From Sporosarcina jeotgali (GTDB lineage Bacteria; Bacillota; Bacilli; Bacillales_A; Planococcaceae), in assembly GCF_033304595.1 (NCBI RefSeq), contig NZ_CP116341.1, positions 787,001 to 851,000 on the forward strand: a DNA stretch of 64,000 nt. The letters run 5' to 3'. Below, one piece after another: positions 18,090 through 61,314 of the stretch (positions within the stretch are counted from its first letter, which is position 1; the number at the start of each line of letters is the position of its first letter). Under the pieces are notes generated by a model. That model saw only the letters and a list, made by a program, of their open reading frames with translations. It had not been told where the DNA came from and searched no databases. Both the position numbers and the translations under genes were made by a program.

Positions 18090-18223
18090 GCTCTATTAGC
18101 GAGGGGAAGCGCTCCATTCAGCTGGGTAAGCGATCCATTGAGTCGGGTAACCGCTCGATTCACCTGGCTAAGCGCTCCTTTTGCTAGGCTATCCGCTCCA
18201 TTCGCCTGTTTAAGCGCTCGATT
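18090..18223 (+). repeat. Array D: 7 units, exact 21-bp period, GMTC + CATT/GATT
   Basis: GCTC or GATC tetramers start at 18090, 18111, 18132, 18153, 18174, 18195 and 18216, each exactly 21 bp apart. Most are followed by CATT or GATT (GCTCTATT, GCTCCATT, GATCCATT, GCTCGATT). The intervening sequence is partly conserved (for example 'GGTAAGC'). The array starts 29 nt after the hpf terminator. Because 21 is divisible by 3, both strands show accidental heptapeptide-like open frames. Confidence 0.85.
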
Positions 18224-18239
18224 CACATGCTTTCTTGAT

Positions 18240-18463
18240 TGAGAGAGGTGGAGGTGATCGAGCAATCCGGTACTACTTTTACTCCCGCGGCATTATTCCT
18301 ATTCCAATTCTATCCCAACTCGCGACAAATCCATCTTTCCCCGGTTAAAACCAAGATTAATTGGTGGGCTCCGCTTCGCTGCGCATTTAGGGATGAGGTA
18401 GGGTGGGAAAAGGGTTCTCTCTACCGCAGCTTGTTGTAAAAGGTGTCCCCACGCATCATAGGT
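18240..18463. other. Gene-free spacer between arrays D and E
   Basis: No supported gene. It holds 'GATTAATTGGTGGGCTCCGC' near 18356, which resembles the 'GGATTAATTGGG(T/G)GCGCT' spacer inside array F (50.9-51.1 kb). That hints that the two loci share a degenerate element. Confidence 0.4.
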
Positions 18464-18575
18464 GATCAAGCAACAAGCGGATCCGCTCAAGCAAAGATAA
18501 AACTGATCAAGCACCACCAAAACACACTCAAGCCGACCCCAAAAAAGCTCAAGCACACACCCAATCCGCTCAAGC
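18464..18575 (+). repeat. Array E: 6 units, 20-21-bp period, GMTC + AAGC
   Basis: (G/A)(A/C)TCAAGC occurs at 18464, 18485, 18505, 18526, 18547 and 18568 (spacings 21, 20, 21, 21, 21). Spacer sequence is A/C-rich and not conserved. It has the same layout as array D, with a different tetramer after GMTC, and lies about 120 nt upstream of secA. Confidence 0.8.
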
Positions 18576-32905: not shown

Positions 32906-33054
32906 GCTCATAAAAGTTATGAAACGCTCATAACGTCGGGGAAATGATCATAAATCTCGCGAAGTGCTCATAACCGTGGAAATGCGATCATAAATCACGA
33001 AATGTGATCATAAGACTTTTAAACTGATCATAAACCTCAAAAAACCGCTCATAA
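32906..33054 (+). repeat. Array A: 8 units, 20-bp period, GMTCATAA
   Basis: G(A/C)TCATAA starts at 32906, 32926, 32946, 32966, 32986, 33006, 33026 and 33047: seven exact or nearly exact 20-bp steps. GCTC at units 1, 2, 4 and 8; GATC at 3, 5, 6 and 7. The 12 nt between motifs vary. It begins 48 nt after the preceding terminator and lies upstream of the addBA promoter. Confidence 0.88.
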
Positions 33055-43187: not shown

Positions 43188-43289
43188 TATGCCGTTTTCA
43201 CAGGATTGACTTATTTTTGAATGCTGGTTTTAGTTTTCTTCATAAACCATGGCGACGGATAGTGTGGTTTGGTAATATTAAGTGATGAG

Positions 43290-43760
43290 TTATGATCAGA
43301 ATTTGTGATTTATGAGCGGATTGCGCGGGTTATGATCATAATTTGAGATTTATGAGCGGATCGCGCGGTTTATGATCAGATTTTGTGATTTATGAGCGCG
43401 TCGCGCGGGTTTATGATCACATTTCGGGATTTATGAGCGGATTGAGCGGTTTATGATCACAATTCGAGATTTATGAGCGGATCGCGCGGTTTATGATCAC
43501 AATTCGAGATTTATGAGCGTTACGCGCGGGTTATGATCACAATTCGAGATTTATGAGCGTTACGCGCGGGTTTATGATTAGATTTCGAGATTTATGAGCG
43601 GGCCGCGCGGGTTATGATCATAATTTGAGATTTATGAGCGGATCGCGCGGTTTATGATCAGAATCCGAGATTTATGAGCGGATCGCGTGAGTTATGATCA
43701 GAATTTGTGATTTATGAGCGCGTCGCGCGGGTTTATGATCAGAATTCGAGATTTATGAGC
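43290..43760 (-). repeat. Array C: 24 units, 20-bp period, strictly alternating TTATGATC / TTATGAGC
   Basis: On the + strand TTATGATC (once TTATGATT) and TTATGAGC alternate without exception from 43290 to 43760: 43290, 43310, 43330, 43350, 43370, 43390, 43411, 43431 and so on to 43753. Steps are 20 bp, with 21 bp at three or four points, giving a 40-bp higher-order unit. These are the reverse complements of the GATCATAA/GCTCATAA motifs of arrays A and B. The GATC half is usually followed by 'A(G/C/T)AATT(T/C)G', and the GAGC half by 'GGATCGCGCGG'. No reading frame or promoter was identified inside. Confidence 0.92.
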
Positions 43761-43818
43761 GGACAGCACTAGTTATATTCAACACCCCATGGATTTATTG
43801 TAGAAGGAGGCTTTTTTA

Positions 43819-45270
43819 GTGAACGTCAAACGACTGATGAGTATAACGATGATGGTTCTTTTGCTGGGAACGACGGCACTTCCGGGCTTGGCTTCTGCTA
43901 AGGCTGAGCGGACCTTGAAAGACGAAAGTATATATGATTTATTGGTTGACCGTTTTAATAATGGGGACGGACGGAATGATGCAGACACCGATACTCAAGA
44001 TCTGTCTGCATTTAACGGAGGCGATTTCTCCGGGATTTCCCTTCGTTTGCAGCATATTTTAGATATGGGCTTTACCGCCGTTTCCATTGGGCCTGTTTTC
44101 CAGACCGCGTCTTATGACGGCAATGAAGTGCTGGATTACACGAAGTTCGAGAAGCATTTTGGCACCGAAGAAGACTTTAACGCGATGCTCGATGAATTGC
44201 ACGATAAAGACGTTCGTGTCATCGCAGACTTCCCATTAGCGGGAGTGAGCAAAAATCACGTATGGGCCAGCAAACTTCCGTTTACTCAAGGTGAAGGAGA
44301 TACGATTGATTGGAAAGCAGATGATGCGGACGTTCAGAAAACCCTTCTAGAAACTATGGTGGACTTCGTGAAAACGTATCCGCTGGACGGGCTTCGTTTA
44401 ACGAAAACGGAAGGGTATTCAAAAGAAGTCCTCAACCAATTTATAGCTGCATTGAAAAAGGCATCACCTGATTTGTATGTATTATCTGGTGAAGAAACTG
44501 AAGCGGATGTGGACTCTCAGCCAAACGATGCTTCCATCGAGGCTTTGCGTCAATCCTTCGTAAAAGTGGATCCGGATTCTTCTCCGATGAACCAATTTGA
44601 AACGAGCAATCCGAGTGACTTGATTGAATTTGATCAGTTAACGGGTCCGCGTTTCACATACGACATCGTTGAACAGCGCATGTTCCCTCCAACACGCTGG
44701 AAAGTAGCCGTCACTGCGCTATTTACGTTACCTGGAATTCCAGTTATGCCTTATGGCACTGAAATTGCAGTGAACGGAAAAGAAGCACCTGAAAGTCATC
44801 CATTGTTCAACTTTAAGACGGATATGGAACTGAAAGAACTCATTGGGAATTTGAATTCACTTCGGAACCAATCGAAAACACTTCGAAACGGTGACTTCAA
44901 AATGCTGCACAACAAAGATGGATACATGGTCTATAAAATCTACGACGAAGATGAATCGTGGATTATTGCTATCAATAATACATCTGAAACACAAAGTTAT
45001 GAACTGGATCCCGACGAGATTGGAAGCAAAAAGCGTCTGCGCGGACTGCTGGACAGCGACCAGATCGTAGAGACTGAAGATGACAAATACCACGTTGTTG
45101 TGGATCGCGAAATGGCGGAAATCTATTTGGTGAAAGACGATAAAGGGTTCAATATCCCTTATCTGATTGCGTCGATTATGGTCTATGTTTTATTCTTAAG
45201 CTTCCTTTGGGCAGTTTGGAGAAGAGGCCGTAAAGCACGTCAAGAACGAAAAGCAGCAGCGAAGAAGTAA
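43819..45270 (+). CDS. Membrane-anchored GH13 alpha-amylase homologue, catalytic residues lost
   Basis: A 483-residue protein. The signal peptide ends near 'LASAKA' (residue ~28), a GH13 (beta/alpha)8-type body follows, and a C-terminal membrane helix 'IPYLIASIMVYVLFLSFLWAV' precedes a basic tail. GH13 layout is evident ('ESIYDLLVDRFNNGDGRND', 'LPGIPVMPYGTEIA'), but the catalytic motifs are degraded. Region I reads 'DFPLAGVS' instead of D-x-x-x-N-H. Region II reads 'GLRLTKTEG', where the nucleophile Asp (R-x-D) is Thr. Region IV reads 'FDQLTGPRF', where NHD is replaced. Only the region III Glu-like 'SGEE' remains. It is therefore probably a non-enzymatic glucan-binding or scaffold protein on the outer surface. 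GTG 43819 follows AAGGAGG. Confidence 0.8.
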   Translation: MNVKRLMSITMMVLLLGTTALPGLASAKAERTLKDESIYDLLVDRFNNGDGRNDADTDTQDLSAFNGGDFSGISLRLQHILDMGFTAVSIGPVFQTASYDGNEVLDYTKFEKHFGTEEDFNAMLDELHDKDVRVIADFPLAGVSKNHVWASKLPFTQGEGDTIDWKADDADVQKTLLETMVDFVKTYPLDGLRLTKTEGYSKEVLNQFIAALKKASPDLYVLSGEETEADVDSQPNDASIEALRQSFVKVDPDSSPMNQFETSNPSDLIEFDQLTGPRFTYDIVEQRMFPPTRWKVAVTALFTLPGIPVMPYGTEIAVNGKEAPESHPLFNFKTDMELKELIGNLNSLRNQSKTLRNGDFKMLHNKDGYMVYKIYDEDESWIIAINNTSETQSYELDPDEIGSKKRLRGLLDSDQIVETEDDKYHVVVDREMAEIYLVKDDKGFNIPYLIASIMVYVLFLSFLWAVWRRGRKARQERKAAAKK

Positions 45271-50766: not shown

Positions 50767-51265
50767 AGGCGGGTGTCCACCACTGGGAAGCAGTTCTCCA
50801 TCACTCAAGCTCGTTTCTTGATCACTTAAGTAAATTTCTCGATAACAGGACACAATTCAACAGCGTTAAGGGATTAATTGGGTGCGCTTCGCTTGTCTAG
50901 GAAGGGGCTATGTCACTATGAAAACCGCCTATCCTACAGATCGTGCTGGTTGTCCGACACTGCCAAGCAGTTCTCCATCACTCAAGCTCGTTTCTCAATC
51001 ACTAAAGCAAACTTCTCCGACACATAGCGGAATTTCTCGATAACGGGGCACAATTCCACTGCGTTAAGGGATTAATTGGGGGCGCTGCGCTTGTCTAGGA
51101 AGGGGCTATGTCGCTTTGAAAACCGCCTATCCTACACATGGTGCTGGTTGTCCGACACTGGCAAGAAGTTCTCCATCACTCAAGCTCGTTTCTCAATCAC
51201 TTAAGCAAACTTCTCCGACACATAGCAGAATTTCTCGATAACAGGACACAATTCAATGGCGTTAA
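50767..51265 (+). repeat. Array F: three long direct repeats (177/198 bp) built on a 21-bp sub-unit
   Basis: TTCTCCATCACTCAAGCTCG recurs at 50794, 50971 and 51169. Inside each copy, blocks starting at ATCACTCAAG repeat every exactly 21 bp (50800, 50821, 50842; 50977, 50998, 51019, 51040; 51175, 51196, 51217, 51238). Copy 1 has three 21-mers and copies 2 and 3 have four, which explains the 177 versus 198 bp spacing. Between them lies a conserved ~110-bp spacer with 'GGATTAATTGGG' and 'AAAACCGCCTATCCTACA'. It lies between clpB and yjzD, after the clpB terminator. Short open frames here are repeat artefacts. Confidence 0.88.
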
Positions 51266-51373
51266 GGAGTTAATTGGAAACACCCAACTAGTTTATAGAA
51301 ACATGATGCCACTGCAGCAAGAACGCAATCATACTAACCATCCATCCATTCAACGCAAAACATCCATTCAACG

Positions 51374-54170: not shown

Positions 54171-55612
<1,442 letters not shown>

Positions 55613-60926: not shown

Positions 60927-61314
60927 GATCATAAGTTTGAGAAAGCGCTCATAACCCGGGAGAAGTGATCATAAACCCGAGAAAGCGATCATAACCCAGA
61001 GAAAGCGCTCATATCCCGCGAAAAGTGATCATAACCCAGAGAAAGAGCTCATAACCCACGGATAGTGATCATAAACCAAGGAAAGCGCTCATAACCCGCG
61101 GGAAGTGATCATAAACCAGGGAAAGCGCTCATAACCCGCGGGAAGTGATCATAACCCAGAGAAAGCGCTCATAACTCAGGGGAAGTGATCATAAACCAGT
61201 TAAAGCGCTCATAACCCACGAAAAGTGATCATAACCCAGAGAAAGCGCTCATAACCCGCGAAAAGCGCTCATAACCCAGCCAAAGTGATCATAAGTCCAA
61301 GCAAGCCGCCCATA
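60927..61314 (+). repeat. Array B: 20 units, exact 20-bp period, GATCATAA/GCTCATAA
   Basis: Units start at 60927, 60947, 60967 and so on to 61307 without a single length change. GATC and GCTC mostly alternate. Consensus ATAACCCRNGRAAAGYGMTC. The base before the tetramer covaries with it: GATC units read TGATCA and GCTC units read AGCGCT, so nearly every unit centres on a 6-bp palindrome. The last unit has decayed to GCCC. It lies between the RoxS terminator and the convergent yjbH gene. Confidence 0.93.

Follow-up and report, generated by a model that had tools for sequence, protein, structure and literature searches.

Direct repeats spaced about two helical turns apart and read by a DNA-binding protein are familiar from iterons and plasmid centromeres. 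Those repeats serve one replication or partition site, whereas the arrays described here occupy dozens of chromosomal sites and their proposed partner carries a nuclease-type domain. A parallel in function is offered by RAYT-REP systems, for which the available part of one report describes an enzyme gene with an adjoining repeat cluster, intergenic dispersal of the repeats and several such pairs per genome (PMC3116915). The arrangement here is alike, with a single-copy enzyme gene beside its own flavour of repeat, repeats dispersed between genes and several pairs per genome. The components are unlike: RAYTs belong to the IS200-like tyrosine transposases and REPs are palindromic, whereas here a PD-(D/E)XK-like NERD protein with a winged helix accompanies non-palindromic direct repeats phased at two helical turns. 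The partner is not a Y1/HUH tyrosine transposase (NERD is the only significant Pfam match in the proteins scanned) and the repeats are direct repeats of a non-palindromic 8-bp word; because both enzyme and repeat type differ, the system is not a member of the RAYT-REP family. The best-supported reading is that of a nuclease with its own phased arrays, which would be functionally like RAYT-REP.

Intergenic direct repeats of the heptamer TAACTGA provide a second parallel. The part of the report available describes them from Beggiatoaceae, Cyanobacteria and Bacteroidetes, in up to 43 copies and with a patchy distribution across taxa, and proposes that they bind a post-transcriptional regulator (PMC4679880). 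They are likewise short fixed words directly repeated between genes at many sites; in that part of the report one heptamer spans distant phyla and no linked gene is given, whereas the words described here are lineage-specific and come with a NERD gene. The partner protein shares its PF08378 match with other NERD domain proteins and is unlike the staphylococcal NERD-like protein SmdA, a membrane-anchored cell-morphology factor according to the part consulted (PMC9040797). None of the literature matches listed links NERD proteins to repeat arrays, matches to NERD alone being judged by title, and the full-text matches listed for 8-mers and for intergenic or tandem repeats contain no description of such phased arrays. 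A further paper was set aside as unrelated to the arrays in the part available (PMC11417379).

Array C and its neighbourhood

The window analysed is a stretch of 64,000 nucleotides (C1:787001-851000) from the Sporosarcina jeotgali genome, which comprises 3,203,634 bases in one contig. The following features of the window bear on the arrays:

18103..18225, + strand: decayed remains of a 21-bp array of G[C/A]TCCATT, a related word that also flanks NERD genes of relatives (loci L279, L273 and L372)
18340..18395, + strand: copy of a dispersed double-hairpin element that accompanies arrays
18464..18575, + strand: decayed 21-bp array of the word GMTCAAGC, which also flanks this genome's own NERD gene C1:378941-379978 (locus L263)
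32906..33054, + strand: array A, 8 GMTCATAA units, upstream of addB
43230..43289, + strand: segment just 5' of array C (GGTTTGGTAATATTAAG), from a six-sequence alignment, kept in two array-free relatives and promoter-like by eye only
43290..43772, - strand: array C, 24 TTATGA[T/G]C units in 40-bp dimers, that is, GMTCATAA on the - strand
43819..45270, + strand: GH13-like (alpha-amylase-like) gene whose leader contains array C, with a partial match to Pfam PF00128 and a match to PF22026, and with a homologue in 60 of 61 genus genomes
60927..61294, + strand: array B, 18 exact GMTCATAA units, between the convergent pepF and thioredoxin-like genes

The 24 units of array C occupy 43290-43760 and start between 43290 and 43753, and TTATGATC and TTATGAGC alternate strictly, the sole exception being TTATGATT at 43572. 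An earlier note on this DNA had described 24 units in GATC/GAGC alternation, inverted relative to arrays A and B; both observations are borne out, since A and B each bear GMTCATAA on the + strand. Its 20-bp step holds for 20 of the 23 intervals and is slightly off for the other three, which measure 21 bp. Tandem Repeats Finder (TRF) reported a period of 40 with 11.8 copies, 86% matches and a score of 636; periods of 121 and 161 bp score equal or higher (641 and 728). Spacer identity within the array is 0.78 at lag 2 versus 0.36 at lag 1, indicating a higher-order unit of at least 40 bp, and two pairs of 40-bp dimers are identical. Together these two results mark the alternation as the trace of a duplicated 40-bp dimer. 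Neighbouring dimers, which the earlier note had expected to be the most alike under slippage, are not clearly more similar to each other than random dimers (P = 0.15), so simple slippage between neighbours does not account for the array.

Array C is present at this place in seven genomes, with 24 units here, at least 14 in a metagenome-assembled genome where the contig ends (L148), 18 in BI001-red, about 5 in S. gallistercoris (a TRF value, as the unit walk ran beyond the array), 11 in ZBG7A, 20 in D27 and 18 in S. aquimarina MER 20. In ZBG7A, D27 and S. aquimarina MER 20 the units are nearly all GAGC, with one or two T units each, while the 40-bp period is kept. Recognition of pairs, which the earlier note had offered beside dimer duplication as a reason for the alternation, is therefore not required, and strict pair recognition was dropped. 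The note had also held that variable copy number among close strains, with no conserved alternation, would count against its view; copy number does vary (about 5 to 24) and alternation is lost in three of the seven orthologous arrays. Overall, its interpretation of array C is partly supported, and the genome-wide family with a likely cognate nuclease is not visible from one window.

Array C appears to be a gain within the 5' leader of the GH13-like gene, where it separates the ribosome-binding site from a conserved segment upstream. The segment GGTTTG.TA.TAT is common to the six aligned sequences, and S. koreensis S-K12 and NCCP-2716, which are without array C, retain it and have the ribosome-binding site about 20 nt later, arguing for a gain. 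A consensus promoter scan of the segment did not score above shuffles. In the GH13-like protein, domain matches are confined to the beginning of the catalytic domain and to a C-terminal domain, and no catalytic motifs were found in it by a simple regular-expression scan.

Several known kinds of element were considered for the arrays and set aside. A CRISPR array was dropped, because the 12-nt spacers of any one array resemble each other (0.68 at lag 2), whereas CRISPR spacers are unrelated. DnaA boxes and AddAB Chi sites were also dropped on comparison of their words; AGCGG occurs in array C and is absent from array B. Phage or plasmid iterons were provisionally dropped after searches of plasmids, where array B found no match, and of viral contigs, where the only match (L149 2586-2660) is an unrelated 10-bp repeat (ATAAATGCTC) fitting the pattern by chance and AACTGT gave 0 matches. 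An RNA regulator was dropped because no Rfam family was found for the arrays in the window or at two array loci; the array C leader folds with z = -1.98, and 4 of 100 shuffles were equally stable. The only above-threshold Rfam match in the window is a T-box leader at 55386-55606 on the - strand. Elsewhere in the window, 50790-51278 is a decayed region that has a 198-bp tandem duplication and TTCTC[G/C]AT-like words spaced at 21 bp, and the syntenic place carries arrays of other words in several relatives.

The GMTCATAA arrays of the genome and the genus

Phased pairs of the form GMTCATAA-N10-15-GMTCATAA number 556 in the genome versus 0 for the reversed word, placing the phasing of array C far beyond chance. 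The word used as the reversed control proved to be genuine in three other genera, where AATACTCG forms 92, 9 and 15 pairs. Using BLAST with array B as query and lists of phased pairs, we located 53 arrays with at least three exact units, 601 units in total, in the fetched stretches and the window; this set is incomplete, since it accounts for 512 of the 556 pairs. All 53 lie between predicted genes, taken as the longest ORF calls without a gene finder, and one overlaps an ORF call by 16 nt. With degenerate in-phase units included there are 639 units, spaced at 20 bp (557), 21 bp (28) or 19 bp (1). Across arrays, lag-2 identity is 0.982 for the core, a value inflated at array ends since the word itself served to find the arrays, and 0.676 for the 12-nt spacer. 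The spacers are private: units of the same type are 0.42 identical between different arrays and 0.68 within an array at lag 2. One word combined with array-private spacers argues for a sequence-specific reader.

Unit variants covary with the preceding base (TGATCATAA 260, CGCTCATAA 247, TGCTCATAA 66, CGATCATAA 14 and others 14, of 601). The two distinct half-sites seen by the earlier note are thus real as alternating unit forms, and both are variants of a single word. Variants alternate in 412 of 512 adjacent pairs versus 264 expected; among the 44 arrays with at least six pairs, alternation is perfect in 15 and not above expectation in 9. Alternation is common, not obligatory.

The chromosome shows no depletion of isolated GMTCATAA words (7 and 9 counted versus 8.9 and 7.3 expected), indicating that the candidate reader protein described below is not an efficient restriction enzyme for single sites. 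Site avoidance of the restriction-modification kind was dropped, and this non-avoidance speaks against a restriction-like role.

The arrays are not placed evenly among gaps between genes. The 44 array-bearing gaps that were classified comprise 18 convergent, 23 tandem and 3 divergent ones; the corresponding counts for the 76 array-free gaps of 100 nt or more in these stretches are 10, 46 and 20. Convergent gaps are enriched (Fisher P = 0.0008) and divergent gaps depleted (P = 0.009). With the terminus assumed at ~1.54 Mb from the base skew of sampled stretches, 33 of 44 gaps have GMTCATAA pointing the way replication runs. Among gaps with a lagging-strand gene on each side the word still follows replication in 4 of 5 (8 of the 10 genes flanking these gaps have a Pfam match), and in divergent gaps it does so in 0 of 3. 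Spacers are purine-rich on the leading strand in either word orientation, with a purine fraction of 0.60-0.64 in co-oriented arrays and, on the word strand, 0.38-0.44 in inverted ones. Array C is of the inverted type.

At five places in this genome (C1:2837145-2838580, 2775839-2776341, 1901976-1902402, 2002465-2003159 and 2608283-2608717) an array and a flanking segment are tandemly repeated together, in two to five copies with a period of ~300-400 bp, and several of these repeats share the double-hairpin element. Common flanking sequence connects only part of the dispersed arrays, so copying with flanks leaves the remainder unexplained. In the fetched stretches of this genome, 12 of 13 matches to the double-hairpin element lie within 130 bp of arrays; the thirteenth, at window 18340-18395, has arrays of other words on either side. 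The element is present in 9 of 61 genus genomes, the same nine that have more than 300 GMTCATAA pairs. At related loci, 30 of 46 matches (overlapping loci counted) lie within 200 bp of a GMTCATAA array; the ten loci without such an array nearby all have arrays of another word, one of the ten with degenerate units only. Some double-hairpin loci have a protein gene beside or between the arrays, and it was this gene that led to the NERD protein.

The distribution of the family is patchy. Exactly nine of the 61 genus genomes have more than 300 GMTCATAA pairs (316-639), the same nine that have the most similar GH13 gene; nine others have 12-125 and the remaining 43 have 0-11. Ten of the 61 genomes contain pairs of a second word, AACTGTNAKG (2-315 each); the nine GMTCATAA-rich genomes have none. 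The idea that AACTGTNA is exclusive to genomes without GMTCATAA was abandoned, since five genomes (G167, G149, G156, G127 and G146) have both. In the wider family sample, 29 of 121 genomes have at least one GMTCATAA pair, many of them a single pair that may be due to chance.

Downstream of pepF and close to the GH13 gene, the 20-21-bp arrays found in other species are built from different words. In fixed-coordinate 20-kb stretches from 12 Sporosarcina genomes, intergenic array periods are multiples of 20-21 bp in 11 of 14 cases; the figure is 3 of 5 for fixed-coordinate stretches of 8 genomes from other genera and 13 of 13 at the GH13 loci, which are known array places. Several arrays of period 41-42 in probably spurious ORFs are excluded from these intergenic counts. 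A tandem element of another kind, with ~124-bp units and no phased words, lies by the GH13 gene in genomes G125 and G150 (L105 1007-1378, L107 751-1371). Elsewhere, one 20-kb stretch (L170, G162:C1:500001-520000) holds several arrays of AAAAGTCCAAA-type words and a NERD homologue at 513329.

NERD genes, their arrays and the winged helix

The candidate reader gene lies outside the window at C1:282237-283205, between GMTCATAA arrays at 281397-281965 and 283344-283491; the former, with 29 strictly alternating units, is the longest of the 53. Its product is predicted to combine a NERD domain of PD-(D/E)XK type with a zinc ribbon of four cysteines and a winged helix at the C-terminus. The NERD profile PF08378 matched both proteins scanned above the gathering score (E = 2.2e-16 and 1.1e-16); both are orthologous to the copy at 1917454 in this genome, and one of them aligns with the GMTCATAA-linked copy at 54% identity. 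In all 11 aligned proteins the PD-(D/E)XK signature residues E54, D88, E101 and K103 (E54...D88...E101xK103) are invariant, as are the zinc-ribbon cysteines C240, C243, C258 and C261. In the predicted structure (pLDDT 90.8), residues 11-195 match the PD-(D/E)XK proteins Can2, Cdn1, Upx and VC1899 with Z 8.3-8.8 and McrC with Z 7.5, where values under 8 can be background, and residues 265-323 match winged helices (IclR type, CadC) with Z about 6. Foldseek matches to the model were weak (best E 2.1e-3), and a sequence search for solved relatives gave none at E 0.001, the best (0.027) being a ribosomal zinc protein. In defence libraries the NERD part matches only PglW and MAD6, weakly and far below cut-off, and PADLOC returned no match for three of four proteins.

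NERD homologues occur in 57 of the 61 genus genomes, with four in this genome and 0-14 matches per genome, the maximum coming from one partly contaminated assembly; some carry internal stops. We assessed their surroundings at a selected set of loci (two known, 30 chosen by tool and 60 by the authors, with 30 and 20 added later). The 92 loci examined gave 81 unique genes after removal of 11 duplicates, all from Sporosarcina. A phased array lies within 900 bp of 71 of these 81 genes and on both sides of 47, while none was detected at the other 10. Among 436 control genes of at least 250 aa, taken from 24 Sporosarcina stretches and 26 GH13 loci, 51 have an array and 4 have arrays on both sides; this control is conservative, because GH13 loci are known array places and NERD genes were left in. 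Where arrays lie on both sides, they have a common word (at least 7 exact letters) in 44 of 47 cases versus 10.9% after shuffling.

In all nine genomes with more than 300 pairs, the GMTCATAA NERD orthologue adjoins GMTCATAA arrays (L037, L266, L270, L274, L277, L280, L282, L353 and L354). In these nine the gene proper is free of stops; those that occur lie at position 3 of the matched stretch, ahead of the next methionine. Words follow NERD orthologue groups: GMTCAAGC beside this genome's copy at 378941 (L263) recurs in the decayed array at window position 18464, and GCTCCATT, which adjoins relatives of that copy (L279, L273 and L372), recurs in the decayed array at 18103. In the nine genomes with 12-125 pairs, a harder test, GMTCATAA adjoins a NERD gene in four (G147, G161, G167 and G169); as evidence against the pairing, exact GMTCATAA was found at none of the NERD copies examined in the other five (6 of 8 copies in G085, 4 of 5 in G151, 3 of 5 in G155, 3 of 5 in G156 and 5 of 9 in G166).

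Eight genomes from seven other genera, with words known from earlier counts, were also analysed. Five were named beforehand (G049, G035, G099, G026 and G065), adjacency having already been seen in G099, and three were added later (G036, G015 and G031). A phased array was found at 24 of 29 placeable NERD loci (one of 30 could not be placed), downstream in 23 of them, and none was detected at the other five. The known word adjoins a NERD gene in 6 of 6 genomes, once only in degenerate form:

L323, L328 and L332 (G049, G035 and G099): AATACTCG, 4, 16 and 10 copies downstream
L346 (G026): GATCATAA, 3 copies
L337 (G036): GCTCATAA or GATCATAA, 4 copies
L351 (G065): degenerate array with GCTCATAA in its consensus and one exact copy, a weak case

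TRF missed the arrays at L332 and L337. G015 has one GMTCATAA pair and G031 three, with three copies beside a NERD gene in the latter (L343). These results point to an undescribed nuclease-plus-repeat system in which many NERD proteins each lie beside arrays of their own word.

At the level of sequence, residues of the winged helix track the word. Among 75 genes (those with internal stops or without frequent 6-mers were dropped), frequent 6-mers are common to 22 of 25 gene pairs with C-terminal (winged-helix) identity of at least 80%, 12 of 35 pairs at 60-80%, 2 of 51 at 50-60%; under 50% identity the share drops to about 1% or less. Two motifs, picked after viewing the alignment, were then compared with words in 69 non-redundant proteins; these derive from 130 unique genes (114 with an array), of which 18 were removed, 16 for lack of an array and 2 for a stop in the C-terminal region. 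An association with GCTC is seen for the helix motif RHx[ASTV][KR] (17 of 19 versus 5 of 50); the wing motif G..K[ASG][ATSG].Y is associated in the same way with CATAA (9 of 13 versus 2 of 56). A tree built from the nuclease part alone requires 10 or more changes for CATAA. Of 9 independent pairs for wing and CATAA, a mean of 5.6 were concordant and 0.0 discordant (median p 0.031, range 0.031-0.125); for helix and GCTC the means were 3.3 and 0.0 (median p 0.25), too few for significance. Crossed controls were weaker (1.8 and 0.6; 2.3 and 0.1). One protein on another branch (L356) combines an RH helix, a K wing and GCTCATAA arrays on both sides, and its nearest relatives, 60% identical, have other words.

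These associations bear on two other explanations. It is very improbable that the arrays are ordinary minisatellites produced by replication slippage, with NERD genes merely situated in repeat-rich places. Copy number does differ among close relatives, units are closer within than across arrays and larger local duplications occur, all as slippage would have it; against this stand 53 arrays with one word and private spacers, the same word on both sides of the NERD gene in 44 of 47 cases and the concordance of winged-helix with word relatedness. Similarly, we consider it improbable that another, unlinked protein, such as a nucleoid or chromosome-organising factor, reads the arrays and that NERD proteins follow secondarily. 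The strong replication-direction bias and the leading-strand purine-rich spacers in either word orientation are typical of chromosome-wide signals and would suit such a factor. However, a universal factor would need no separate word for each NERD gene within one genome, and the word follows the NERD orthologue group and its winged helix.

The proposed nuclease and its target arrays

Our main reading, to which we assign a probability of roughly 0.7, is that array C is one dispersed target array of a sequence-specific nuclease encoded at C1:282237-283205. The NERD protein very probably binds the word, and probably cuts DNA; that such cutting drives the propagation of arrays is a more tentative proposal. 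The winged helix would read the 8-bp word G[A/C]TCATAA, its recognition helix (RHxAK) contacting the GCTC half and its wing (K-small-small motif) the ATAA half. A spacing of 20-21 bp would place all sites on one face of the helix, so that neighbouring protomers could touch; the two-turn phasing suggests such contact. Duplication of the 40-bp dimer, not of the single unit, would leave the two word variants alternating. Binding, together with nicking or cutting inside the array, may drive its growth, its loss and its copying to other intergenic places, and gene and arrays would persist as a RAYT-REP-like pair. A change in the winged helix would bring a change of word, with the old arrays left to decay.

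The conservation of each word favours real use, which could also take another form: the NERD protein may bind the arrays as a host-beneficial regulator, anchor or stored defence nuclease, the arrays being kept by selection at the level of the cell and not by self-propagation. We regard this as unlikely, while noting that several observations agree with it, namely the intact word amid diverging spacers (lag-2 core 0.98, spacer 0.68), the NERD homologues in 57 of 61 genus genomes, the preference for convergent gaps (18 of 44 versus 10 of 76) and avoidance of divergent ones, the prevailing replication direction (33 of 44 gaps) and the weak sub-threshold matches to the defence proteins PglW and MAD6. 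Host benefit is less readily reconciled with array numbers that are patchy among genomes, with 0-14 NERD matches per genome, some with internal stops, with the gain of array C inside the leader of one gene and with the absence of a PADLOC match for three of four proteins. Patchiness, broken copies and recent gain favour self-propagation, and an array may be at once a product of cutting and a useful anchor.

Extending the self-propagating nuclease beyond this genome, we lean slightly towards the view that NERD-winged-helix nucleases and helically phased word arrays constitute a new class of bacterial repeat system. Each protein would read its own 8-10-bp word by a partly modular code, the recognition helix reading one half and the wing the other, would seed and maintain intergenic tandem arrays genome-wide, and would switch word through winged-helix mutation, with generations of words succeeding one another at the same loci. 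If this is true, many puzzling intergenic tandem repeats in this bacterial family gain a defined protein partner, and sequence-specific DNA recognition becomes the function of one large group of NERD proteins. The dozens of natural pairs of protein and word, each with the target beside the gene, would then allow direct tests of the code by which a winged helix reads DNA and of how bacterial minisatellites arise.
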